DNA of 38,071 nucleotides from Bacteroidota bacterium (GCA_026709335.1 JAPOTE010000052.1:1-38071); one strand, 5' to 3'. Shown: positions 1-38,071, counted from the stretch's first letter. Numbers and translations: made by a program. Notes: a model not told the origin generated them from the sequence alone.

Positions 1-1384
1 TTGAGGGTAATGGAACCGAGTGGGGAAGAGCGCGAGCAAATGGCCCCCAAATTTGACTAAACCCTTTCCCTTGTGCATTTTTTACCTTCTCGAGTAGTCG
101 GATCCCACGAATCAGCCACCATAGTCGAATTGTCAATGAATGAACAATAACAAAGGTCCGACGCCAATCGAGCCGATTGAACGATTTAGGGATTGCTGAT
201 CCAACAGCCTCAAACAGGACTTTTGATCCAGCAAGTGCCATATTCGAGATGGCAATCTCTTCGCACGCGAGCAACCGCATTGTGCGACTACGAAATGATG
301 GGCTTACGCGCCAACGATGATATAATGCTTTTCTGACGGAGGTCACTTCCACATGTTGATCCGCAAATACTTCGTAAATCTCCATTGCTAAAAGCTCTGG
401 CGTACGAACCGCCTGGAATCTCTCCACAACAAAATCGGTGAATCTTTCAGATTCTGCCAACGCGAGGGCATCACCGAACCCAAGCGTCATCCCTATTGCC
501 GTTAAAGGATGATAATATCCAGCTGCATCGCCAATCAGAACACGATCTGATCTCCCATAAGAAACGCGCGGGCTCATAGAGTTTACCGCTCCATGAAACT
601 CTCCCTCCTGGAGAGATTCTATAAAGGCAGATCGGAGCATTTCCGGTAAAAATTGAACTGATACCTCAGACAGATATCCAACACGGTCGCTGGAATTCCA
701 GTAATGAGGAGGTATATCAACAATCACACGAATCTGATCTTCCCGCAAGCGATAGATGAACATTGGGCCAGGTCCGCCAGATAATAGATGCCCATATGTT
801 TCCATAGGTAAATCGACATTTTTCACAGTCACGCCTACCATACGGGAGCAGTTCATCGGAGAGGATTTAATACCGATTCCCAGTGATCTTCGTACCAGAG
901 AAGAGCGACCGTCAGCACCTACAATTCGCTCAGCGCTGACAGATTCCATGTTACCCTCATGAGAAAAAAAGACTTCCTTGCCCTCGATTTTTCTTACACG
1001 GGCAGCAGAAATAAAATCTATGCCTGACTGACTTTCCACCGCCTCGTGCAAAGAAGATACGATGACAGAATGCTCACATGCCAAGCCGTATGCATCATCG
1101 GAATAGGGAAGAATAATCGGATCGGAGTTATCTTCGGGCAATACTACAAATCCTCTTCCTATCGTACAATGCGCATGTTCATCAAGGTTTACTCCGACCT
1201 CCTTTAGTATCCGTACAGCTGGCGGATGTAACCACTCGCCAGCCATTCGTTTCGTAGCTTTCGTGTTTGCTTCAAGTAAAGCTACTCGTGCACCTCTCTG
1301 TGCGTGAGCAAGTGCACATACACTCCCAACAGGCCCAGCACCCACAATAGCTACGTCATAAAAGGACGAAGAGGAAGTGTTCAT
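1..1384 (-). CDS. Squalene epoxidase-like FAD-dependent monooxygenase (3' end beyond window)
   Basis: The reading frame starts at ATG 1384-1382 and stays open for 461 codons to the left edge, so the C-terminus is cut off. An FAD-binding Rossmann motif (GAGPVG, residues 15-20) is followed by a ribose-binding Glu at 38. A DG motif (GADGRSS) lies near residue 157. The motif GDAAGYYHPLT...GMT lies near residues 283-300. HPLT..GMT right after the GD motif is the hallmark of squalene monooxygenases. The family uses FAD, NAD(P)H and O2 to make 2,3-oxidosqualene, the substrate of oxidosqualene cyclase. The start overlaps the stop of the CYP51 gene as ATGA, suggesting translational coupling in the sterol operon. 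A related flavin monooxygenase of another specificity cannot be excluded, but the neighbours favour squalene epoxidase. Confidence 0.78.
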   Translation of the reverse strand, partial: MNTSSSSFYDVAIVGAGPVGSVCALAHAQRGARVALLEANTKATKRMAGEWLHPPAVRILKEVGVNLDEHAHCTIGRGFVVLPEDNSDPIILPYSDDAYGLACEHSVIVSSLHEAVESQSGIDFISAARVRKIEGKEVFFSHEGNMESVSAERIVGADGRSSLVRRSLGIGIKSSPMNCSRMVGVTVKNVDLPMETYGHLLSGGPGPMFIYRLREDQIRVIVDIPPHYWNSSDRVGYLSEVSVQFLPEMLRSAFIESLQEGEFHGAVNSMSPRVSYGRSDRVLIGDAAGYYHPLTAIGMTLGFGDALALAESERFTDFVVERFQAVRTPELLAMEIYEVFADQHVEVTSVRKALYHRWRVSPSFRSRTMRLLACEEIAISNMALAGSKVLFEAVGSAIPKSFNRLDWRRTFVIVHSLTIRLWWLIRGIRLLEKVKNAQGKGFSQIWGPFARALPHSVPLPS

Positions 1385-2793
1385 TGGAAAACACTTGACT
1401 GTGAACGACGGCGATAACGGATGAGACACGGCTCTTTAGGGCCTGTTACCCAGCTACCATAATTCGGATCTGGAATCCCTGAATCAAGATGAAACTCAAA
1501 GCGATCAAGCAACACGGTCCAGATCGCTTTGAGTTGCATGTATGCAAAGTGTTTCCCCATGCACTGGTGCTTGCCCCCTCCAAATCCGATCAACGTATAA
1601 TGGTGTTGCTTATGCTCACTTCTAGGGGGAGCAAATCGTTCGGGAACGAACTCATTCGGATTTTCAAAAACTTCTGGTAACCTGTGAGATACTGCAGGCG
1701 ACACCATTGCAAGTGTTCCGGGGGATACGACATGATCTTTGTATCGGATCGGCTGGAGAACCTTACGAATCAATACAATGAGTGGTGGATGTAATCGTTC
1801 GTTTTCTCGTATGACACACTCCAGTGCTAATTGTTTTTTGAGTGTATCATAGTTCATTTCGCCCTCTTGACCATATACCTCCTGCATTTCGTTTCTCACA
1901 TGGTCAATACAAGAAGGTGCCTGTGACATTTCCAATCCTGTCCAAGTTGCCAGAACCGTGCTGGTATGCTGCCCTGCAAACAGAACAGTCAGTAAAATCC
2001 CGGTAATCTCATCATCCGTTAATGCACGCCCATCTTTGTACTTTGCCTCCATGAGAGTATTCATGAAATCATCCTGCACAGAACCTGTACGGCGACGCTT
2101 CTCAATAATTTGACTAAGAAGATGTGCTATTGTTTTCCGTGCGCGATCACGAGCTCGATGGGAAGGAATTGGCAGATAAGGGAGAAAAAAACCGATCAGA
2201 TTTATCCCATTTTGTAAATAATGATATGCATCCGCAAAACCTTCATCTATCTGCTCCCGAATCTCCTTGCCAATCAGACAATGACTGGCAATCTTGACAG
2301 TGAGGCGATTGAGTGCTTCTGGTAAATTAAGTTCACCCTCGTCATCCAGCTCATCTGCAAACATTGTCGCTTCCTTGAACATGATTCGAGCGAACCTGCG
2401 CATGGCAGGTTCTCGAAGTGCTGGAAACAGAAAACCTAGCTGTTCCGACATGATTTCCGGAGCAACATCATAGGCTACACCACGTCCAAATATTGGCACA
2501 GTGAACTGATAGACGGCTCTGGCATCGAGCTGAGCTTCGGATGCTTTGAAATAGACATCATGCGCATTTGGACCAGTAAAAAGAACGAATTCACGAGTGC
2601 CGAGCCGAAAGCGTGCGAGATCACCTTGCTCACGCCAACCGCGTCCCATCATTGCTACGGGATCCTTCTGAAATTCCAACGCATGTCCCAACAAAGGCCA
2701 CCCCCCATCAAGTTCGGGAACGACTGATAGAGAAGTCATCAAATCATCTGATGCAGAATGTGGGGTTACCCCATTAGAAGATTGCTGTGTCAT
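1381..2793 (-). CDS. cyp51: CYP51-type cytochrome P450, sterol 14alpha-demethylase
   Basis: This 470-residue P450 carries the CYP51 signatures in order. The B-C region motif YQFTVPIFGRGVAYD lies at 95-109, the I-helix motif AGQHTS at 273-278, the K-helix ExxR at 330-333 followed by LHPPL, and the heme loop FGGGKHQC at 404-411 with Cys411 as thiolate ligand. The family removes the 14alpha-methyl group of lanosterol-type sterols in three O2-dependent steps, leaving a C14-C15 double bond. No N-terminal membrane anchor is evident, as in other bacterial CYP51s. The gene lies 8 nt after the sterol reductase that would act on its product, and its TGA overlaps the next ATG by 4 nt. It needs a ferredoxin or reductase partner, and none is encoded in the window. 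The subfamily call is very secure. Confidence 0.95.
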   Translation of the reverse strand: MTQQSSNGVTPHSASDDLMTSLSVVPELDGGWPLLGHALEFQKDPVAMMGRGWREQGDLARFRLGTREFVLFTGPNAHDVYFKASEAQLDARAVYQFTVPIFGRGVAYDVAPEIMSEQLGFLFPALREPAMRRFARIMFKEATMFADELDDEGELNLPEALNRLTVKIASHCLIGKEIREQIDEGFADAYHYLQNGINLIGFFLPYLPIPSHRARDRARKTIAHLLSQIIEKRRRTGSVQDDFMNTLMEAKYKDGRALTDDEITGILLTVLFAGQHTSTVLATWTGLEMSQAPSCIDHVRNEMQEVYGQEGEMNYDTLKKQLALECVIRENERLHPPLIVLIRKVLQPIRYKDHVVSPGTLAMVSPAVSHRLPEVFENPNEFVPERFAPPRSEHKQHHYTLIGFGGGKHQCMGKHFAYMQLKAIWTVLLDRFEFHLDSGIPDPNYGSWVTGPKEPCLIRYRRRSQSSVFQ

Positions 2794-2801
2794 TACTTCA
2801 A

Positions 2802-3917
2802 TTAATGAATAAAAGGTACCATGGAATATGGAACCCGCTGTTTATACTTCACCCATAGCTCACCGTACTTGGCACTACATCGTCGCTCATCCCGCCACGA
2901 ACGATGCCACAAAAGTCCTATGAGCCAAGCCGGTAACAAAAATGGGATCCACGAAACAAATCCAGTTGTAAACGTGAATGCCAAGTAGACGCAAATTTCC
3001 CCAGAATAATTGAGGTGGCGTCCAATGCCCCAAAAACCTGAAACAAGAAGGCGGCCTTCTAAACTCTCCGCAGGCTTCCCCCAAATGGTAATTTCAGAGT
3101 TGCGCTTAAAGCGGTGTTTCTGCTCATTAGCACCACGAAAGAGCCAAAATCCAAATACAAATAATAAAACGATGGCAATCGCGACAGGAATAGGTAGTGA
3201 TCCCGATGCATTCAGTAACCACCATCCTGAGATACAATAGAAAAAGGGAACGAGTACATAATCTCCCCAGACCAACATCCAGCCAAAACGTTCACTGACA
3301 AGATCCCAAGTGTGGATCATGCCATACTCAAACTGAAAATAATTGAGAATATACAGGAAAGTAAAGCACTGATAAAGTATCATGGCAAGACTCAACTCTC
3401 CATACTCTTCATATTGTGCTACTCCGAATGAGAGATTGAATATTGCCAAGGCAATCAGGGATGGGCGGTAGCTGAAAAGTTTCAAATCTACTCCAAACCA
3501 GGCAGGGCTGTGTTCTGCGCCATAAAAATAGGCGTTCCAGAATTTTCTGGGGGGAGTTTGGGAACGAGATCCGCGCCAGCACAGCCAGCCAGAAAGTGTA
3601 AATGCAAACAGGTTTGCTACCACGAACAGTGCCAGAAAATCATCAAGTAACGTAGAAAGAGAGAATATATTGGCCACCTGAAGGCCACCCGCCATGAGGA
3701 CAGTAATCAGAAAGAGAAGAAGACCGTTCAGTTTGTAGGTACGGGCTTTTCCGTCAATTACAGGTCCGATAGTTTTTTTGCCTGGCAATACAATTGAGCC
3801 GATAAACAACAGAACAATAAACCCCAGCATGAGGGCAGTCGCCCTGAGCAAGGCATCTCCTGATAACCCATCGAGTAACTCAGCCATCAGATTGAGAGCT
3901 TGTTGCGTGTACCCCAT
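2802..3917 (-). CDS. Sterol C-14 reductase, ERG4/ERG24 family membrane protein
   Basis: This 371-residue polytopic membrane protein has about 8-10 hydrophobic segments. The N-terminal GKARTYKLNG element (about 57-66) and the C-terminal hallmarks of the sterol reductase family are present: GIGRHLNYSGE near 297-307, LLWHRSWRDERRC near 334-346, and KYGELWVKY with a final VPYSMVPFIH. The family reduces sterol double bonds with NADPH. Between a CYP51 and a C-4 demethylation pair, the expected job is reduction of the C14 double bond left by CYP51. A delta-7 or C24(28) reductase of the same family is the alternative. The ATG at 3917 follows a GGAG by 3 nt and overlaps the upstream Rieske gene by 38 nt. 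A second ATG at codon 11 is possible but has no ribosome-binding site. Confidence 0.9.
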   Translation of the reverse strand: MGYTQQALNLMAELLDGLSGDALLRATALMLGFIVLLFIGSIVLPGKKTIGPVIDGKARTYKLNGLLLFLITVLMAGGLQVANIFSLSTLLDDFLALFVVANLFAFTLSGWLCWRGSRSQTPPRKFWNAYFYGAEHSPAWFGVDLKLFSYRPSLIALAIFNLSFGVAQYEEYGELSLAMILYQCFTFLYILNYFQFEYGMIHTWDLVSERFGWMLVWGDYVLVPFFYCISGWWLLNASGSLPIPVAIAIVLLFVFGFWLFRGANEQKHRFKRNSEITIWGKPAESLEGRLLVSGFWGIGRHLNYSGEICVYLAFTFTTGFVSWIPFLLPAWLIGLLWHRSWRDERRCSAKYGELWVKYKQRVPYSMVPFIH

Positions 3918-5040
3918 TCACTCCGTTATTTCGATACTCCAAGTGCTCCCGCCATTTTCGGACAGTTACTTTTTGAAATGCACGCACTACCGGATTTACT
4001 TCCATTGGGGGTGCCTCCCAAAAAGATTCATAACCGTCCTGTTCTGCTTCCATAGCAAATTGATCTTCGGAGAGCAAAGGACCGATCAATCGACGATTAG
4101 CAATCTTCAATACCATAGTCATGGCCCAACGTGGAATACGCACGGGTAGAAAAGGAATCTTCAGTGACTTGAAGTAGAACAAAAAGAATGTACGGCTAGT
4201 GCGTTCATCAATGGGAAGCACAAAAAGCCAGTGCTTGATCTCGTCATCTGTATTTGACCATTGGTAGGGATACTCAAAACAGAGGTCCATTTTGTTAGTG
4301 TCAATTCGATCATGCTCAACGAAGAGACTAGAGATACGGCCTCGGCCGACTTTGGTATTGTAAGCGAGATGAACATTGTCACCAACCGTTTCAAATCGTA
4401 TAAGCTCTGCACCTTGAAAAGGTCGATATTTGCGGTGTAGATAGGCATGAGAAAAGTCGCTCACATTATCTATAACCATCGAGTGGTGAGCAGAACATTT
4501 AAAGCTGACTGGTACACAAGCCCACCGCCCTGGTCCTTCGAGTTCAGGAATTTCGGGAATTTGGCGAGATTCAGCCATTTCAGGATTACCGGGAAATATC
4601 CAAACCAAACCGTATCGGATCTTGACAGGATAGCTTCGAACCGCAAGTTTCGGGACGCTTTTCCGACCGAAAAGATCAGGGATTTCTACAACACGTCCAG
4701 TTTGGTCATACTCCCATCCATGATAAGGGCACACAAGTCTACAGCCCTCTACATTTCCCTTGGAGAGTTTTAATTGTCTATGTAGGCAACGATTTTCAAT
4801 CGCATGAAAGGAACCATCTTTGGTACGATAAAGCGCAATGGATCGTTTCCAGAAGATGACCTCTACCGTAGTACCAGGTTTAACTCGGCGTACCTCCTCC
4901 ACCGCATACCAATAGTCAGGGTGCATCCCGGAAGAACGAGCTTGCTGGCGCAGAGTACCTCCTTCTTCAAATCGAGGTGGAGCAGTTGTTGAAGGATCGA
5001 CATCATGTGTTGGTTGAGATGTTATCTTGGTATCTGACAT
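3880..5040 (-). CDS. sdmA: Rieske [2Fe-2S] sterol C-4 methyl oxygenase, SdmA-like
   Basis: This 386-residue Rieske non-heme iron oxygenase alpha subunit has cluster ligands CLH (Cys85, His87) and CPYH (Cys104, His107). The mononuclear iron site is NVSDFSHAYLH with Asp195, His198 and His202. A probable carboxylate ligand lies in EDQFAMEAEQ (325-334), with Asp326 the best candidate. In Methylococcus capsulatus the Rieske enzyme SdmA, with SdmB, removes a C-4 methyl group of sterols, replacing the eukaryotic ERG25 hydroxylase. The dehydrogenase just upstream (28-nt gap) matches the partner role, and CYP51 and a sterol reductase follow. The sdmA symbol rests on architecture and context. A KshA/DAF-36-like 7-desaturase or another steroid Rieske oxygenase is the main alternative. 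No dedicated reductase is nearby. Confidence 0.8.
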   Translation of the reverse strand: MSDTKITSQPTHDVDPSTTAPPRFEEGGTLRQQARSSGMHPDYWYAVEEVRRVKPGTTVEVIFWKRSIALYRTKDGSFHAIENRCLHRQLKLSKGNVEGCRLVCPYHGWEYDQTGRVVEIPDLFGRKSVPKLAVRSYPVKIRYGLVWIFPGNPEMAESRQIPEIPELEGPGRWACVPVSFKCSAHHSMVIDNVSDFSHAYLHRKYRPFQGAELIRFETVGDNVHLAYNTKVGRGRISSLFVEHDRIDTNKMDLCFEYPYQWSNTDDEIKHWLFVLPIDERTSRTFFLFYFKSLKIPFLPVRIPRWAMTMVLKIANRRLIGPLLSEDQFAMEAEQDGYESFWEAPPMEVNPVVRAFQKVTVRKWREHLEYRNNGVNGVHATSSQSDG

Positions 5041-5068
5041 AGTGCCTAAATCTGAAGAGATTAGTTAG

Positions 5069-6172
5069 TTAAATATTAAGATTTCTTGGAGGTTTTGCTT
5101 TCGGATTTGTAATTGCGTTGCGAGAGTAGTGAAATGCATATGCTTCATGCACCGCGTCACGGATTGTGGTTGGCTTAAACCCAAGTTCATTTCTCGCTTT
5201 GCTGGTATCTGCATGGCGACGTTTTTGCAGCAGTCGAATTGCACCAGGTGTGAAGCGTTGTGGGACACTGGGGTGAAATTTACTCAGATAAAAACTTGCA
5301 ATCTCCGATGCCACTAGCATCAAGCGGGGGGGAATTCTGCGGCTGGATCTTTTAATACCTGAGACTTCCTCAAACAGGTCCAATATTTGGGAAATCGTCT
5401 TATACTCGGTGCTGAAGATATATTTTTCCCCGGAGCGTCCATGGTGCATGCACAAAAGATGTCCCTGAACGATATCACGAGCCGCGACAAATTCAAAGCC
5501 CCCGTCCACATATGCGCGAATTTTGCCACGGGTGTAATCACATAAAGTTCTTCCCAGGCGGGAAGGAAGGTAATCATAACTCCCAATGAGGGCGCAGCAT
5601 GTTGCTACAACAACATCTTGTCCTTGCGCCGCTGCCCTCCAGCATTCATGCTCAACCAATACCTTGCTACGCTCATAGGGCATTGTACGCTCCATGGGGT
5701 AGAACTGCATCGTTTCGTTACTGGGGGCTGACGGATCATCTAGATCATATCCAACCGCGCTGAAGGATCCTGTTACAACTACTCGCCCTGCGTTAGCTTC
5801 CCGGGCTGCTTGCAATATATTGCGGGTCCCAATTACGTTGCATTCGTATATTTCCCGACGATGGGCATGATTCCCGACGATGGTCGATATTTTTGCAGCG
5901 ACATGATAAATGCCTTGGCAACCTTCTACGGCCTTTTTGGTGGCATCGAGATCCCGAACATCTCCGTAGACCCGTTCAACGTCAAGGCCTTCAAGTGCTT
6001 CGTTATTATCCTCTTGACGTAGTAATACCCTCACCCGCACGTCATCACTAAGGAGTCGTCTCAGGAGATTTGCTCCCAAGTGACCTGCAGCCCCAGTCAA
6101 TAAATAGGGTGCATTTGGTGAACTGGTAGGTGAATTTGATTCAGAAGAATTAACAATGGGATTATCAGGCAT
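5069..6172 (-). CDS. sdmB: NAD(P)-dependent 3beta-hydroxysteroid dehydrogenase/C-4 decarboxylase, SdmB/NSDHL-like
   Basis: This 367-residue extended short-chain dehydrogenase has the cofactor motif TGAAGHLG (26-33), a catalytic Ser in TGSFSAVG (134-141) and the YERSK pair (Tyr166, Lys170). The first 20 residues are Ser/Asn/Pro-rich and look disordered. NSDHL/ERG26 enzymes and bacterial SdmB oxidise the 3-hydroxyl of a 4-carboxysterol so that the carboxyl group is lost as CO2. That is the expected role here after the Rieske oxygenase. It is the first gene of the sterol operon, and 732 bp separate its ATG from the divergent squalene synthase. Other extended SDRs (dihydroflavonol-4-reductase-like) look similar, so the sterol call leans on context. 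Confidence 0.8.
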   Translation of the reverse strand: MPDNPIVNSSESNSPTSSPNAPYLLTGAAGHLGANLLRRLLSDDVRVRVLLRQEDNNEALEGLDVERVYGDVRDLDATKKAVEGCQGIYHVAAKISTIVGNHAHRREIYECNVIGTRNILQAAREANAGRVVVTGSFSAVGYDLDDPSAPSNETMQFYPMERTMPYERSKVLVEHECWRAAAQGQDVVVATCCALIGSYDYLPSRLGRTLCDYTRGKIRAYVDGGFEFVAARDIVQGHLLCMHHGRSGEKYIFSTEYKTISQILDLFEEVSGIKRSSRRIPPRLMLVASEIASFYLSKFHPSVPQRFTPGAIRLLQKRRHADTSKARNELGFKPTTIRDAVHEAYAFHYSRNAITNPKAKPPRNLNI

Positions 6173-6904
6173 CTACTACAAAGAAGCAATACAGATTTCT
6201 AGGTGCAACATCATAAGATCGCGGATCATACGATAACGAGACCAACAGCCTGTGGGCTCTTGAAAAGAAGACAAGTACACGCAACTCAAACTGATTTAGT
6301 ACAACAACCGTGGGCAAAAGCAGGCAACGCATTCTCACGCAAGGAAGTTATACAATACACTAAACACTAGAGAGTAACTGAGTTGAGGGTTAAGGAAATA
6401 CCATTATCTAACATCTATTATTATTATTTCTTGTGATGGATAAACTATTTCAATAATATTATTTCAACAATTCGACGAGATATCTGTAACAGACAATTCC
6501 GAAAATATTAAATCCAAGAAACGGCTACGGAACCATCATTTCTTTATAAACTATTCGTAACTTCAACATTTATCATACCTAATAGAAAGATAAGAAATTT
6601 CTGATAACTAGAGACAAACAGAATTTGTGAAGAGATTTTCCCTGGTTTGGTAAATAGTTGGTTATTGGTTATGGGGGCGTATTGCAACTACCATCAGCTT
6701 TTTGATAACTCATAGGAAACGTCAGCGGGGTTGCGTATATGTTAGATTAAGTGTGACCGCGTGGTGATCTGCATCCTCAGTTGATGGTTTTTGCCTGTCA
6801 CTCTTCGCCAATACGTTAGTTGAATCAGTACCATCTCGAAGATGTTTCCGATTCGCGCTAAATTGATCAGAATCAACAGTTAACGCACTTATATTGATAT
6901 TTAG
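6173..6904. promoter_or_regulatory. Divergent AT-rich intergenic region between sterol operon and squalene synthase
   Basis: This 732-bp stretch carries no convincing gene. The open frames in it are short and show no family motifs. It is AT-rich, especially 6400-6660, which has runs of ATTATTATT and AATATTATTT. Both divergent transcription units must start here: the minus-strand sterol operon (ATG at 6172) and the plus-strand squalene synthase (ATG at 6905). Neither start has a clear Shine-Dalgarno sequence. I could not pick promoter boxes or an operator with confidence. The length is unusual for this gene-dense window and leaves room for regulation or a small RNA. Confidence 0.5.
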
Positions 6905-7936
6905 ATGGCAGCTGATTATTCCCATCTTAAAGAAGATTTGGCTTATCAGACAGAAATTCTACAGGATGTCTCTCGAACCTTCGCATTAACGATTCCCGAG
7001 CTGCCCTCTGAGCTACGAATCGTCGTTGGTAATGGCTATCTCTTGTGTCGAATCGCGGATACAATAGAAGATGAGGAGGGGCTTTCCGCACAACAGAAAC
7101 GTGAATTCTCTGACCGTTGGTTTAATGTATTGAAGGGAACCACTGATGCGGAGACTTTTTCCCGAGATTTGGGCAAATTGCTCACTCTCTCTGCAACAGA
7201 ACGAGAAATTGATTTAATTGACAACGTAAATAGGGTTGTCAGAATTACAAACAGTTTTTCCGAGCCGCAAAAGAAGGCACTTTTGCGTTGTGTGGATATC
7301 ATGGCCGATGGCATGGCCGTATTCCAACAGAACGCCAGTCTCGAAGGATTGACAGATTTGGACCATCTTAATCGCTACTGCTATCATGTTGCAGGCGTTG
7401 TTGGTGAAATGCTGACAGAACTTTTCTGTGATTATTCCGATGAAATCGCAACACACAAGGACGCGCTCTTTACACTCTCCTCGTCCTTTGGACAGGGCCT
7501 CCAGATGACGAATATTCTCAAAGACATCTGGGAGGACCATCGTCGTGGTGCTTGCTGGTTACCACGCAGTGTTTTTCAGGAGAATGGCTTTGATCTTCAT
7601 TCCCTTTCTCCAGATCATACCGATCCTGGATTCACACGGGGAATGAACACTCTCATTGCGGTTGCCCGCCAACATCTCAATAACGCGCTCCAATATACTC
7701 TTCTCATCCCTGCTCATGAAGTCGGTATTCGTCGCTTCTGCCTATGGGCGCTCGGAATGGCGGTTCTAACCTTGCGAAAAACTTATAACACCCCAACGTT
7801 CAAAAGCGGTCAGGATGTCAAAATCACAAGGCGAACGGTAAAAGCGGTTGTTGTGTCTACCAGCGTACTCGCACGCTTTGATTCTGCCTTAAAATTACTA
7901 CACTTTGTTCTTAGCCGAGGCCTCCCCCGCCCCTGA
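6905..7936 (+). CDS. Squalene synthase (farnesyl-diphosphate farnesyltransferase family)
   Basis: This 343-residue all-alpha trans-isoprenyl diphosphate synthase has DVSRTFALTIP (21-31), the first Asp-rich motif DTIED (52-56), YCYHVAGVVGEM (158-169) and the second Asp-rich motif DIWED (207-211) followed by RRGACWLP. Two DxxED motifs bind Mg-diphosphates in squalene and phytoene synthases. YCYHVAGVVGE resembles the squalene synthase consensus, and the gene sits beside squalene-consuming genes. It should condense two farnesyl diphosphates to squalene with NADPH. Phytoene synthase or a dehydrosqualene/HpnD-type enzyme is the alternative, since the second motif resembles that branch. No strongly hydrophobic C-terminal anchor like that of eukaryotic squalene synthase is seen. 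The gene is monocistronic and divergent from the sterol operon. Confidence 0.85.
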   Translation: MAADYSHLKEDLAYQTEILQDVSRTFALTIPELPSELRIVVGNGYLLCRIADTIEDEEGLSAQQKREFSDRWFNVLKGTTDAETFSRDLGKLLTLSATEREIDLIDNVNRVVRITNSFSEPQKKALLRCVDIMADGMAVFQQNASLEGLTDLDHLNRYCYHVAGVVGEMLTELFCDYSDEIATHKDALFTLSSSFGQGLQMTNILKDIWEDHRRGACWLPRSVFQENGFDLHSLSPDHTDPGFTRGMNTLIAVARQHLNNALQYTLLIPAHEVGIRRFCLWALGMAVLTLRKTYNTPTFKSGQDVKITRRTVKAVVVSTSVLARFDSALKLLHFVLSRGLPRP

Positions 7937-32752: not shown

Positions 32753-35700
32753 TCATTCCTGAATTAGAAGCTCTTCGTATTGGTAGGGTATGGTTGTAGT
32801 TTTAGTGGGTGTGGAATGGATGAGACTCATACTAAATCCTGGACCGCCGAATTCATTCTCGTAGCTACCCCCGAAATTTAACTTGAATCCTGCGGGCAAC
32901 TGGACGGTGTAGTTGGCACGCATATCAAGAATCCAGCGGTCTATTTCTTTGATGTTGAGGTGCTCGCCAAGTAGGTTTTGATCCCGAAAGAGTTTATCAC
33001 TGGACCGTGCCGAACTGCCCCAACGTGGCGATATTGAGAAAGAAAAGCCTTCCCTACTACGCTGCTCCCCGAAGGTAAATGTGACTGCTGCCCCACGCTC
33101 ATCGTAGCCTTCTACCGAATAATAGGCAAGGGTTCGCGCTTGGGCATCGATGCGTATAATATTAAGAGCAACTTGGAATCCTCCGGCGATCTCAATACCA
33201 TTTCCGGTAATTCCTGCTCCACCATCGTGGCGTGCATGCACAGTACCAAACGGCTTCAATTCAGCGCCACCAAAGCGCACAGGGAGTGATAGATCTACCC
33301 CGATTCGAGCCTGGTTCACAACAACGCTCTGGCCGTCAATGGTTTCTTTCCCTGTCCCGGTCCATAACTTAGCTGAGCCGATATCGCCCAGGATAGCGAA
33401 TCCAAATTTGTTTCCCGTGCCAAATTGTTTTTCAAGCTCAATCAGCCAAAGTCGGAGGCTCGCCTGACTCGTGCCTATCCAACCAGTGTTTCGCGTGTTG
33501 CGTGTATCTCCGCTTCCGGCACCAATTGAAGCCCAAACAGATGAGGACCTAGTAGCCCATCGCACATATGGATGAATGGCCATCATCGACTGGGTCAGCC
33601 GCCCACCCGAAGCTGCTACATACCATTCCCCTGCACTCCTGTTTCGTGAGAGTGCCACGCCAACCAGCCAGCGTCGCCCCAGCCGTGTATCTAGGCCTAA
33701 ATACGCAGTAGAGAGGCTTCCATCGTAGCCTGCATTATATCCATGGACAGACGGAATCCCTTCAAATTCCTGTATGTCTCCTTGCCCCCATATGAACCAA
33801 CGCCTACTTACTGGACACCGCTCCTCTTTTATTTCTAAGTCACCCCAGCCGAGTAGGAAGTCCGCTGTGGCGGTGGAGGGAGTGTTTCGAATTCCAAGTA
33901 CTTGACTTGGAATTGAATGGAGTGTAGAATTTAGTTGCTTATACGTGCCTGGAAATGTCGAGAAGTGTGTGAGATGCGAAGATTCATCGACTCCTTCTCT
34001 GAGCTTCAGCGCAGAAAATACTGCCGAGTAAGCAGTACGTCCAATCTGCATAGGTATCCCCGCAGCCTCTTCTCGGTTTAGTGGCACATTTCGCCCCATG
34101 ACTTCAAGCCAAGATGCTCTACAAGTGTCAAGCTCCATTCTGCGGCCCAAAGCCATGCGTAGGCTTGACAAGTGATTTCGTGCATTTGCCGCCAACAGGT
34201 GTTCAATGATTGCACGCTGTGGGTGATCACTGACGTTCACATCGAATCTTTGGATAGCGTAGAACCCCTCGGGGTCAGATGCAGAAATTTGGACTGTAGC
34301 CGGCCCATACCTGATCGGAGTCAGCGTGAGAATGGTTTCTGTTACTTTAACTAGGAGCACACCGGGATCTGATTGTACACTATAGGTGAGCACGTCTCCG
34401 TCTATATCAAGGAAATATGGCAACAAATCCAAGTGCACCTCCTCGCCGCCCTCATCAAGAATTTGATCAGGAATTGTGCCGACGGCAATCGGTGTGTCAT
34501 TGACTGGAAGTACCGTCATCTCCACCGATGCGTGATCAGTAAATCCCTGTTCATCCGAAACGACATAGCTGAACGCGTCAGTTCCATGGAAGTCAGGTTC
34601 TGGTGTATATATGACATGTCCTTCCGAATCGATGTCTACCACTCCATGAACTGCTTCCGTCGTGGATTGGACACGCAAGAAATCACCTTCGGGATCCGTA
34701 TCGTTAGCAAGTACATCAATGGTCACTGCTTGATCCTCCGCCGTCACTGCCACATCATTGGTTGCCTCTGGTTTCTCATTTATATCGGTCACTTCAATCG
34801 TTACGTCCGTATACGCTTCGGCTTGGAATTCATCCTTTGCGCGTACCCGAAGGCCAAAGCGATTGGGCAAGGTTTCAAAGCTTTCTCCCGTACCAATATA
34901 CTGGATTACTCCTTCTTGCATACTCACTACAAAACGTTGTTGGTCACCAGACACCAGTTCGTAGTTCAATACGTCACGGTCAGGATCCAAGGCGGCAACG
35001 GTGCCGAGAGGAACGGGCTGTGTTTGGCCGCTCATATTCTCGACTAACTCAAAGGTGTAGGCAGATTTCTCGAATGAAGGGGAGCGGTTGAAAACCTTGA
35101 CAGTTGCAGTAGCAGATGCGAATCCCCCACGCCCGTCCGAAACTTCCACATGGAGGTCAACTCGTCCAGTATCACTTGGAGCAATCCAGTGTACTACGGG
35201 TCTAGAATCTTCCCCTGTAAACTCGCCCGCGTCAGTACTCCAGGCGTAGATGAGCGGATCTCCATCGGGATCCATTGCACTCGCATCAAGCCTCACTTCC
35301 CCAAAGCGATGCACTATGCACGGGGTACAGGTAACCGTGACTGTGGGAATCTCATTTAAGTCAATGACCTCCACCAAAACCTCCACTGAGTCAACTCCTC
35401 CAAGCTCATCCTGAACACATACGGTTAATTCAAACAAGTTCGGCTCTATTTCATAATCCTCACCGGGCCCGATATAATGAAACGCTCCGTCGAGTTTATC
35501 CACCGTAAACCATTGCAGTTCTCCTGATATCATTTCATAAGCCAACGCATCTTGATCAGGATCTTCTGCGATAACCGTACCGAGCCGAACAGGTTGAGTT
35601 TGGCCTCCCAAGTTCTCTGACAATTCAAAGGAATAGGTAGGTTGCTCGAAAACGGGAGAGCGGTTGGCGACATTCACGTTCACGGATACCGATGCGGATC

Positions 35701-38071
35701 CTCCTCGACCATCGGAAACTTCAAGCAAGATTTCAACGCGGCCTGTATCGGTTGGTGCAGTCCAATATGCCATGGGGGTATCAGCCGCCGTGAATCTCCC
35801 AATATCCGCACTCCAAGAGTAGGTAAGCGGATCTCCGTCAGGGTCTGTCGCAATCGCTTTTAGTTGTACTTCTCCGGAGCGAGGCACCGTGCACGGGGTA
35901 CAGGTGGCAGTCACCATGGGAAGCTCATTCAAGTCAATGACTTTTACCAAGACCTTTACTGAATCAACTCCTCCAAACTCATCCTGAGCATGTACGGTTA
36001 ATTCAAACAAGTTCGGCTCTATTTCATAATCCTCGCCAGGCCCGATATAGCGGACCACTCCATCATGTCTGCCCACCCTAAACCGATCTTGATCTCCAAG
36101 TACTATTGAGTATACCAGCTCGTTGCCATCGGGATCTGTGGCAGATACTGTACCGAGATCGACAGGATTGACTCGGCCATCCAGATTTTCGGGTAACTCA
36201 AAGGTGTAAGAGGGTTGCCCAAATTCTGGTTCATAATTGATGACTTCAATTTCTGCTTCGGCAGATGCGAAGCCTCCAAATCCGTCAGAAACCTCAATGC
36301 GGATCGTGTAAATTCCAGGTTGACCTGGGGCAGTCCAAGTTGTGGCTGGTTCATCGAGTGCCCCATCGAAGCTCCCGGATGGCGCACTCCACTCATAAGT
36401 TAATTCGTCTCCATCGGGATCGGTAGCTGTAGCCGTCATGTGTACCACACCTCCGAGTTCAACTTTGCATGGCATACATGAAATTGTTACAGTTGGTGGC
36501 CGATTAGGAGGCAAAGTATGATCAAGAATCGTTACCTCAATCGATGAGGGGGTGCCTTTTTCGAGTTCCTCCGGCAAGGTGCCAAGTTCTATAGTAAATG
36601 CCTCGTCGTCTTGATCCGAATCTTCGAGAGTTGTAATAGTGCCAGTTCCACTCGTTGCGTTAGCGGCGATCACAACCTGTGTCATCGGCGTATAGTCCTC
36701 CGGTTCAGCAGTAATCGGTGTAAGTATAATCGGGGCCGTTATTGTCTTTGACATAGTTTTGGACATCAAAACTGTCACGGTAAGAGTTTCTCCTTCGTCA
36801 ACTGGATTTGGGGTAACTGATAAACTTACCTTCGGCGGAGATACTATGTCGTCATTGATAATCGTACCTGTTCCCGTGTCGCTAGAGGCTACTGACCATG
36901 TAGTTTCGGAGACCGTTAGACCGACTGTAAAGGTTTCATCTTCCTCCACGATTACATCTTCGATCGTCTCGACCGTGAAGCTCTGTGCCTCTCCTGCCGT
37001 ACCCTCGAAGGATAGAGATGCAGTATTCTCCTTATAGTCTATTCCCGAGTTTGCAGTGCCATCCAGAAAATTCTGGGTCACTGTCAGGCCGTCCGGCACA
37101 TTTCCAATCAGAGTTACGGTGAAAGTGATTGATTCCCCTTCGTTGGCAGAGGCATCTCCGATGCTCAAGGAAGCGATAACTGCATTCCAGATTGCAGTGG
37201 CGGTAACGGGATTAAGTGGGCCGGTATTGAGGCCATCGGTAGCAGAATTAGCAGTTACTGTAACGACTACGTGAGCATTTCCATTCGGTGTGAGGAGCAG
37301 CGTATAAGTGGTTGCGCTACTAGCGGTAAAAGTCCCCTTGACTGCACCGGTGACCGTTATATCGCCATTGACGAAACCAGTCACATCCTCGTCAAAGGTG
37401 AAAGTGGCCGTGAAGGGAGTTCGATCATTAATCTTGTCTGGAACGCCGGTAATGCTTACGGAGGGGGCGCCTCCATCCCAGATCGCAGTTTTGGAGACGT
37501 TGTTGGTGGGGCCAGTGTTGAGACCGTCGGTGGCGGAGTTAGCTTCTACGGTGACAACCACATTAGCATTTCCAATCGGTGTGAGGAGCAGCGTATAGGT
37601 GGTTGCGCTACTAGCGGTAAAGGCCCCCTTGACTGCACCGGTGACCGTTATATCGCCATTGACGAAACCAGTCACATCCTCGTCAAAGGTGAAAGTGGCC
37701 GTGAAGGGAGTTCGATCATTAATCTTGTCTGGAACGCCGGTAATGCTTACGGAGGGGGCGCCTCCATCCCAGATCGCAGTTTTGGAGACGTTGTTGGTGG
37801 GGCCAGTGTTGAGACCGTCGGTGGCGGAGTTAGCTTCTACGGTGACAACCACATTAGCATTTCCAATCGGTGTGAGGAGCAGCGTATAGGTGGTTGCGCT
37901 ACTAGCGGTAAAGGCCCCCTTGACTGCACCGGTGACCGTTATATCGCCATTGACGAAACCAGTCACATCCTCGTCAAAGGTGAAAGTGGCCGTGAAGGGA
38001 GTTCGATCATTAATCTTGTCTGGAACGCCGGTAATGCTTACGGAGGGGGCGCCTCCATCCCAGATCGCAGT
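32753..38071 (-). CDS. Giant modular surface protein with C-terminal autotransporter-like barrel (5' end beyond window)
   Basis: The frame is open from the right edge to TGA at 32753, so about 1,772 C-terminal residues are seen and the start is missing. In order it holds three or more 97-residue Ig-like repeats (SVSITGVPDKIND; FTATFTFDEDVTGF). Two Calx-beta-type domains follow (ANEGESITFTVTL; DEDETF-like acidic loop; GTGTIINDD). Three alternating PKD and cadherin-like pairs come next, with DPDGD calcium motifs (ATDPDGDELTYEWSAPSG; SYTFELPENLDG). A cadherin/Big-type region (VLANDTDPEGD; DAFSYVVSD) precedes a roughly 330-residue beta-strand-rich tail (WFIWGQGDIQEF; GYDGSLSTAYLGLDTRL) resembling an autotransporter barrel. 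It is likely a cell-surface adhesin. Secretion by a type V-like route is inferred from the tail. Confidence 0.85.
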   Translation of the reverse strand, partial: TAIWDGGAPSVSITGVPDKINDRTPFTATFTFDEDVTGFVNGDITVTGAVKGAFTASSATTYTLLLTPIGNANVVVTVEANSATDGLNTGPTNNVSKTAIWDGGAPSVSITGVPDKINDRTPFTATFTFDEDVTGFVNGDITVTGAVKGAFTASSATTYTLLLTPIGNANVVVTVEANSATDGLNTGPTNNVSKTAIWDGGAPSVSITGVPDKINDRTPFTATFTFDEDVTGFVNGDITVTGAVKGTFTASSATTYTLLLTPNGNAHVVVTVTANSATDGLNTGPLNPVTATAIWNAVIASLSIGDASANEGESITFTVTLIGNVPDGLTVTQNFLDGTANSGIDYKENTASLSFEGTAGEAQSFTVETIEDVIVEEDETFTVGLTVSETTWSVASSDTGTGTIINDDIVSPPKVSLSVTPNPVDEGETLTVTVLMSKTMSKTITAPIILTPITAEPEDYTPMTQVVIAANATSGTGTITTLEDSDQDDEAFTIELGTLPEELEKGTPSSIEVTILDHTLPPNRPPTVTISCMPCKVELGGVVHMTATATDPDGDELTYEWSAPSGSFDGALDEPATTWTAPGQPGIYTIRIEVSDGFGGFASAEAEIEVINYEPEFGQPSYTFELPENLDGRVNPVDLGTVSATDPDGNELVYSIVLGDQDRFRVGRHDGVVRYIGPGEDYEIEPNLFELTVHAQDEFGGVDSVKVLVKVIDLNELPMVTATCTPCTVPRSGEVQLKAIATDPDGDPLTYSWSADIGRFTAADTPMAYWTAPTDTGRVEILLEVSDGRGGSASVSVNVNVANRSPVFEQPTYSFELSENLGGQTQPVRLGTVIAEDPDQDALAYEMISGELQWFTVDKLDGAFHYIGPGEDYEIEPNLFELTVCVQDELGGVDSVEVLVEVIDLNEIPTVTVTCTPCIVHRFGEVRLDASAMDPDGDPLIYAWSTDAGEFTGEDSRPVVHWIAPSDTGRVDLHVEVSDGRGGFASATATVKVFNRSPSFEKSAYTFELVENMSGQTQPVPLGTVAALDPDRDVLNYELVSGDQQRFVVSMQEGVIQYIGTGESFETLPNRFGLRVRAKDEFQAEAYTDVTIEVTDINEKPEATNDVAVTAEDQAVTIDVLANDTDPEGDFLRVQSTTEAVHGVVDIDSEGHVIYTPEPDFHGTDAFSYVVSDEQGFTDHASVEMTVLPVNDTPIAVGTIPDQILDEGGEEVHLDLLPYFLDIDGDVLTYSVQSDPGVLLVKVTETILTLTPIRYGPATVQISASDPEGFYAIQRFDVNVSDHPQRAIIEHLLAANARNHLSSLRMALGRRMELDTCRASWLEVMGRNVPLNREEAAGIPMQIGRTAYSAVFSALKLREGVDESSHLTHFSTFPGTYKQLNSTLHSIPSQVLGIRNTPSTATADFLLGWGDLEIKEERCPVSRRWFIWGQGDIQEFEGIPSVHGYNAGYDGSLSTAYLGLDTRLGRRWLVGVALSRNRSAGEWYVAASGGRLTQSMMAIHPYVRWATRSSSVWASIGAGSGDTRNTRNTGWIGTSQASLRLWLIELEKQFGTGNKFGFAILGDIGSAKLWTGTGKETIDGQSVVVNQARIGVDLSLPVRFGGAELKPFGTVHARHDGGAGITGNGIEIAGGFQVALNIIRIDAQARTLAYYSVEGYDERGAAVTFTFGEQRSREGFSFSISPRWGSSARSSDKLFRDQNLLGEHLNIKEIDRWILDMRANYTVQLPAGFKLNFGGSYENEFGGPGFSMSLIHSTPTKTTTIPYQYEELLIQE
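37188..38071 (-). repeat. 291-bp tandem repeats encoding Ig-like domains
   Basis: The coding DNA repeats with a 291-bp (97-codon) period: 37188-37478 (diverged copy), 37479-37769 and 37770-38060. The last two look identical by eye over their full length. Each unit encodes one Ig-like domain with the motif SVSITGVPDKIND and ends in AIWDGGAP. The array continues beyond the right edge. Such identity implies recent duplication or gene conversion, and it also makes the copy number in an assembly unreliable. Confidence 0.9.

Follow-up and report, generated by a model that had tools for sequence, protein, structure and literature searches.

Gene clusters for steroid synthesis have been described from bacterial symbionts of sponges. 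Kelly et al. (2022; PMC9531527) reported such clusters (CSGs) in 115 of 537 Ircinia metagenome-assembled genomes (MAGs), in 11 classes and 10 phyla including Rhodothermia, found purifying selection on them and proposed horizontal transfer. In the msb cluster of a Melophlus symbiont, a fusion of squalene epoxidase (SE) with a cyclase was named in 2020 (msbE; PMC7074536). 'Fused SMO/OSC homologs' appear in the methods of Brown et al. (2023; PMC10070321), who also report that symbiont sterol C-24 methyltransferases (SMTs) can make 24-isopropyl side chains. Whether the animal or its bacteria make the unusual sterols of sponges bears on the standing of 24-isopropylcholestane as the oldest animal biomarker. 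Here we describe a block of six sterol genes in the first 7936 positions of a 38,071-nucleotide contig (C60, JAPOTE010000052.1, hereafter the window) from a Bacteroidota MAG (GCA_026709335.1). The block is very probably a sterol operon of the kind found in sponge symbionts, gained by horizontal transfer. It would make a Delta8, C-14-demethylated, 4-methyl or 4-desmethyl sterol, and its SE gene appears to continue into an oxidosqualene cyclase (OSC). The host genome, of a Rhodothermales lineage, offers a complete, testable gene set that leads from squalene synthase (SQS) to C-4 demethylation and includes an SMT.

The locus resembles the Ircinia CSGs in that ERG24, CYP51 and the OSC (lanosterol synthase, LSS) are adjacent in this order on one strand, the OSC being reached here through an overlap with contig C113. 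In addition, the same-strand upstream genes labelled 'dihydroflavonol-4-reductase' (DFR) and 'hypothetical protein' in Ircinia match SdmB and SdmA here (3880-6172). In the Ircinia clusters the 3' (OSC) end is usually flanked by an SMT or FDFT1 gene in opposite orientation, a common but not a defining trait (PMC9531527), whereas here the opposite-strand gene is SQS, at the 5' (SdmB) end, and the SMT lies on contig C68. In that account SdmA and SdmB are unannotated and squalene epoxidase is absent from the text; at 3765 nt, the LSS alignment has a length in keeping with a fused gene (PMC9531527). The Melophlus msb cluster shares its enzyme set and its SE-cyclase fusion with the host cluster (PMC7074536), but it comes from one gammaproteobacterium, was proposed for sarasinosides and has its SQS elsewhere, while ours is from Rhodothermales with SQS adjacent. 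Brown et al. likewise had fused epoxidase-cyclases and sponge clusters with sdmAB and SMT, but the fusion was trimmed for the tree and not discussed, and its phyletic range was not described (PMC10070321). The pathways of Methylococcus, Calothrix and Enhygromyxa share OSC, CYP51, ERG24 and/or SdmAB (PMC4919349, PMC10202945), but SE and OSC appear there as two distinct genes (PMC4919349) and no operon has the present layout. As the cluster (Kelly et al.) and the fusion (Melophlus msb, Brown et al.) are published, neither is new. The sequence-only reading, an earlier account made from the window alone, had thought the cluster notable for its host group, a view overtaken by the report of such clusters from ten phyla of sponge symbionts, Rhodothermia included (PMC9531527). 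The host cluster is not unusual for its kind, although it is a good and complete example of it. As far as the literature shows, what is apparently new is that nearly all clusters of this type have the fusion, which forms a single clade, that it occurs in two early-branching MAGs and that further fusions exist, and that the 'DFR' and 'hypothetical' genes are identified as SdmB and SdmA.

All six genes of the proposed pathway block, five on the minus strand and a divergent SQS, were recovered at the place and strand given by the sequence-only reading as long, tightly packed open reading frames (ORFs), and their families were confirmed (Table 1). Such a set goes far beyond what chance would produce. 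The packing of the five minus-strand genes is operon-like, with intergenic gaps of at most 28 bp, and the stop of CYP51 overlaps the start of the epoxidase as ATGA if ATG 1384 is that start. About 730 bp separate SQS from these genes. The window begins with base 1 of C60, so the cluster sits at the contig edge.

A cyclase-domain search of the host genome gave exactly one hit, on C113, and the frame of this hit is open on the 5' side. Apart from one mismatch, C113 starts with the same 70 bases that end the epoxidase strand of C60, and the reading frame runs on. From this overlap and the continuous frame we infer that the 'epoxidase' gene is an SE-OSC fusion of about 1,180 codons. In four genomes of the same genus the SE-OSC gene is uninterrupted, with 1156-1179 codons from stop to stop. 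The squalene epoxidase-like gene of the earlier account thus has its SE domain, but it is not a stand-alone gene; it is the N-terminal half of a fusion cut by the contig end. That account had also named beforehand a genome lacking any OSC as the finding that would speak against it, and an OSC was found, encoded together with the epoxidase in one gene. The cyclase carries GWPVSDCTAE, which contains the DCTAE motif and V453 (human numbering) of lanosterol synthases. V453 accompanies lanosterol in tested bacteria (PMC4919349), and by these residues the OSC is predicted to be of the lanosterol synthase type.

Other explanations of the cyclase were tried and rejected. An unrelated cyclase on C113 was ruled out by the SE frame across the overlap and by the intact gene in the four congeners. 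A squalene-hopene cyclase (SHC) was ruled out by the DCTAE motif, the scores against PDB (human OSC E 7e-133 vs SHC E 6e-48) and the single cyclase in the genome. A stop-to-stop artefact of high GC was ruled out by 55 fused ORFs with alignable ends, short linkers and invariant columns through both domains.

The fold of the fusion was modeled with AlphaFold2 from 49 aligned fusions, with the same-genus sequence L013 as target. The model had a mean pLDDT of 83 and a pTM of 0.80, with low confidence at the linker (residues 457-466) and the C-terminal tail. Residues 2-430 matched human squalene epoxidase (SQLE, 6c6n) with a Z of 39.6 and 2.5 Å over 419 residues, and residues 470-1113 matched human lanosterol synthase with a Z of 42.1 and 1.8 Å over 640 residues. 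The fusion may help to hand oxidosqualene from the SE site to the OSC site, and it could provide a ready-made one-gene tool for lanosterol production in bacteria.

Gene identities were assigned by Pfam and NCBIfam profile searches and by sequence searches against PDB. The SE domain, the sole SE match in the host genome, passes the PF08491 gathering cut-off (77 bits vs 20.1). The top PDB matches of CYP51 are all CYP51 structures (6mcw first), and the B-C loop motif YxFxxPxFGxxVxYD and the heme-Cys motif are kept in 67 of 68 homologues. The reductase scored 210.8 bits on PF01222 (ERG4_ERG24), for which the cut-off is 27, and its nearest solved structure, 4quv, is a Delta14-reductase. As had been claimed from their motifs, CYP51 and the Delta14-reductase truly belong among the sterol enzymes. 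The Rieske motif is present in 67 of 68 homologues of SdmA, and TGxxGxxG and YxxSK are each present in 64 of 65 homologues of SdmB.

Table 1. Genes of the sterol locus; positions refer to contig C60 unless another contig is named.
Feature	Position	Strand	ORF	Evidence and remarks
Squalene epoxidase domain, N-terminal part of SE-OSC gene	1..1384	-	1429-1	PF08491 E 1.3e-21; SQLE 6c6n E 5e-27; ATG 1384 likely start, GTG 1429 start of longer ORF; cut by left contig end
OSC half of SE-OSC gene	C113:1-2175	+		overlap with C60, frame carried on
CYP51, sterol 14-alpha-demethylase	1381..2793	-	2793-1381	p450 E 3e-63; PDB CYP51 matches E 6e-103
ERG24-type Delta14-sterol reductase	2802..3917	-	3917-2802	PF01222 E 4e-62; 4quv E 1.4e-66; start in homologues near 3887
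SdmA-like Rieske oxygenase, C-4 methyl oxidation	3880..5040	-	5040-3880	NF052579 E 4e-119
SdmB-like SDR reductase/decarboxylase	5069..6172	-	6172-5069	NF052578 E 7e-92
Squalene synthase	6905..7936	+	6905-7936	PF00494 SQS_PSY E 3e-55; TIGR01559 E 3e-35

A tRNA scan found none, and in a promoter and terminator scan the signal did not rise above that of shuffled sequences.

The distribution of the cluster was surveyed in the GTDB genome collection, at 80 loci that code for the nearest ERG24 relatives. At 53 of the 80, all six functions were complete on a single contig with SE and OSC in one ORF, and 52 of these 53 showed the order SdmB-SdmA-ERG24-CYP51-(SE-OSC) on one strand. By title, the fused loci come from Pseudomonadota (28), Chloroflexota (10), Nitrospirota (8), Rhodothermota (2), Acidobacteriota (2), Bacteroidota (1) and Binatota (1), and the full cluster with the fusion spans at least six phyla. 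Loci outside the fused group, four from Myxococcota and one from Streptomyces, have a separate cyclase with 37-42% identity. In the cyclase tree, the fused sequences all lie on one side of a branch with an SH-aLRT support of 99. Within this clade, a Sandaracinaceae MAG (L083) and the soil MAG Chromatiales USCg_Taylor (L080) branch first, as relatives outside the symbiont radiation, but the deepest branching order is insecure because the method was quick and some branches are long. The epoxidase-cyclase fusion is therefore the rule in this cluster type and forms one clade. V453, C456, T457, A458 and E459 are each kept in all 58 fused OSC rows and D455 in 57 of them, and H232 is kept in every row having that column. 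The cluster was found in 7 of 245 genomes and 2 of 89 genera of the host's class, all six without a contig-end cut being fused, and in 5 of the 10 genomes of the host's genus.

Further arrangements were seen among the surveyed loci. An apparent triple fusion of SE, OSC and SMT occupies one 1514-codon ORF (L035:11061-15602, plus strand) in a Candidatus Versatilivorator (Acidobacteriota) MAG; each of the three domains exceeds its Pfam cut-off, and it occurs at this locus only. In the Sandaracinaceae MAG, a second SE is joined to a squalene synthase in one ORF of 1178 codons stop to stop (L083:10846-14379, plus strand), which has toroid-like repeats in its middle region and adjoins the SE-OSC gene. 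A tight clade of 11 Acidobacteriota loci has a lone Delta14-type reductase of the same ERG24 family, with no other sterol gene found in the flanking DNA within the available stretch.

The genes, their order, the fusion, the catalytic residues, homology and phylogeny are direct observations, and on them we base a pathway whose enzyme activities and exact product are predicted from sequence. SQS would supply squalene. With O2 and a flavin, the SE domain would turn it into 2,3-oxidosqualene, which the OSC domain on the same polypeptide would cyclize to lanosterol. CYP51 would take off the C-14 methyl, ERG24 would reduce the resulting Delta14 bond, and SdmA and SdmB would oxidise and remove one or both C-4 methyls. 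The side chain may be alkylated by the SMT, of which the host has one, on C68, and which is present in 10 of 10 genomes of the genus. Together with a second ERG4/ERG24-family reductase (C28:3030-4181, about 30% identity, distant and away from the cluster) and a single fatty-acid-hydroxylase-family protein on C108, the SMT makes side-chain and ring edits possible. SdmAB removes one C-4 methyl in methanotrophs and both in Calothrix, and Enhygromyxa needs SdmC (PMC10202945). Given this variation and the SMT, 4-methyl and 24-methyl sterols are equally open, and the zymosterol-type product of the sequence-only reading was too specific and is not established.

Several observations weigh against such an operon and pathway. 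In the host genome the fusion is split over two contigs, with the mismatch in their overlap. SdmA scored 397.6 bits on NF052579 and SdmB 308.7 bits on NF052578, both below curated cut-offs of 600 bits, and SdmA is a homologue outside the curated methanotroph equivalog. SQS, for which TIGR01559 (squalene synthase) is the top NCBIfam model, reached 121.8 bits against a cut-off of 286.75, although it passes that of PF00494. All 58 fused rows have A and H in place of T381 and C449 of human OSC. Neither of the Delta8-Delta7 isomerases, EBP and ERG2, turned up in the genus, in searches whose positive controls were weak or absent, and a Delta8 nucleus is taken as the default since they were not seen.

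Alternatively, the operon could make a secreted or glycosylated, saponin-like sterol natural product instead of a membrane sterol. The Melophlus msb cluster, with the same enzyme set including the bifunctional SE/cyclase, was proposed for the cores of sarasinosides (PMC7074536). However, no glycosyltransferase lies beside the cluster in the window or downstream of the OSC on C113, where the neighbours include a sugar transporter, a sodium/solute symporter-like protein, an HD-domain protein, a creatininase and others. This absence is weak evidence, because the glycosyl genes of Melophlus are at another locus, and on balance we regard a saponin-like product as unlikely. Less probable still is a cyclase product other than lanosterol, such as cycloartenol, parkeol or an arborane-type triterpenol, on which the later enzymes would act. 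Bacterial OSCs making parkeol or arboranes are known, and the A and H replacements would agree with such a product, but V453 is invariant in the fused OSCs, the adjoining CYP51, ERG24 and SdmAB are lanosterol-pathway enzymes, and the A/H pattern also occurs in four of the five unfused Myxococcota and Streptomyces OSCs.

Horizontal acquisition of the sterol operon was assessed by comparing identities. The host falls within a genus of MAGs titled Rhodothermales, in agreement with the Bacteroidota/Rhodothermota-like host proposed earlier. Its RpoB is 83-87% identical to those of congeners and 56-57% to those of Nitrospira MAGs, whereas the corresponding values are 67-73% and 67-71% for OSC, 69-72% and 66-69% for ERG24, and 77-80% and 76-79% for SdmB. 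Unlike RpoB, the operon proteins are thus about equally similar across phyla and within the genus, which fits horizontal transfer. The nearest relatives are MAGs whose names we take to come from sponge studies. The OSCs of the host genus form one clade (support 99), so a single acquisition followed by losses is possible; separate acquisitions within the genus, suggested by identity differences of CYP51 and OSC, were dropped because the OSC tree unites the genus copies.

Contamination of the bin by a contig of another sponge symbiont, for which one could cite the 125 contigs of the host MAG (2.8 Mb, 97.8% complete) and the close homologues in sponge-associated MAGs of other phyla, is highly improbable and largely refuted by the genus-level OSC clade, with the cluster in four same-genus genomes, an estimated genome contamination of 0.09%, and an even GC of 43-51% over the 38 kb of C60 without an island signal in the composition scan. 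MAG bins may hold contamination, but among the carriers are two complete chromosomes, both from Pseudohongiella. With regard to how the acquired operon came about, we tentatively propose, at somewhat less than an even chance, that the fusion had a single origin, in or near Myxococcota or Gammaproteobacteria, that it was then passed on as a fixed operon among at least six sponge-symbiont phyla because one squalene-to-lanosterol polypeptide makes the transferred pathway self-contained, and that it was extended further in some lineages, as SE-OSC-SMT in one genome of Acidobacteriota.

Five other genomes of the host genus have no cyclase and no sterol pathway, yet an SMT is present in them. In one of these (G006, L106:3009-7536), the SMT is preceded by a KshA-type Rieske oxygenase and by a P450 that carries a fused GPP34 (Golgi phosphoprotein 3) domain. 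This suggests that the cyclase-less congeners edit sterols from elsewhere, perhaps from their host. Apart from the sterol SQS, the host genome has a carotenoid locus on C57 (L114:472-2352), where a 626-aa ORF precedes a CrtI-like desaturase. The ORF looks like a fusion of a polyprenyl synthase with a phytoene synthase, the profile test covering the phytoene synthase part. At the other end of the window (32753-38071, minus strand), a very long protein of Ig/cadherin repeats, which also matches an autotransporter-type barrel, runs with near-identical tandem repeats into the right contig end.

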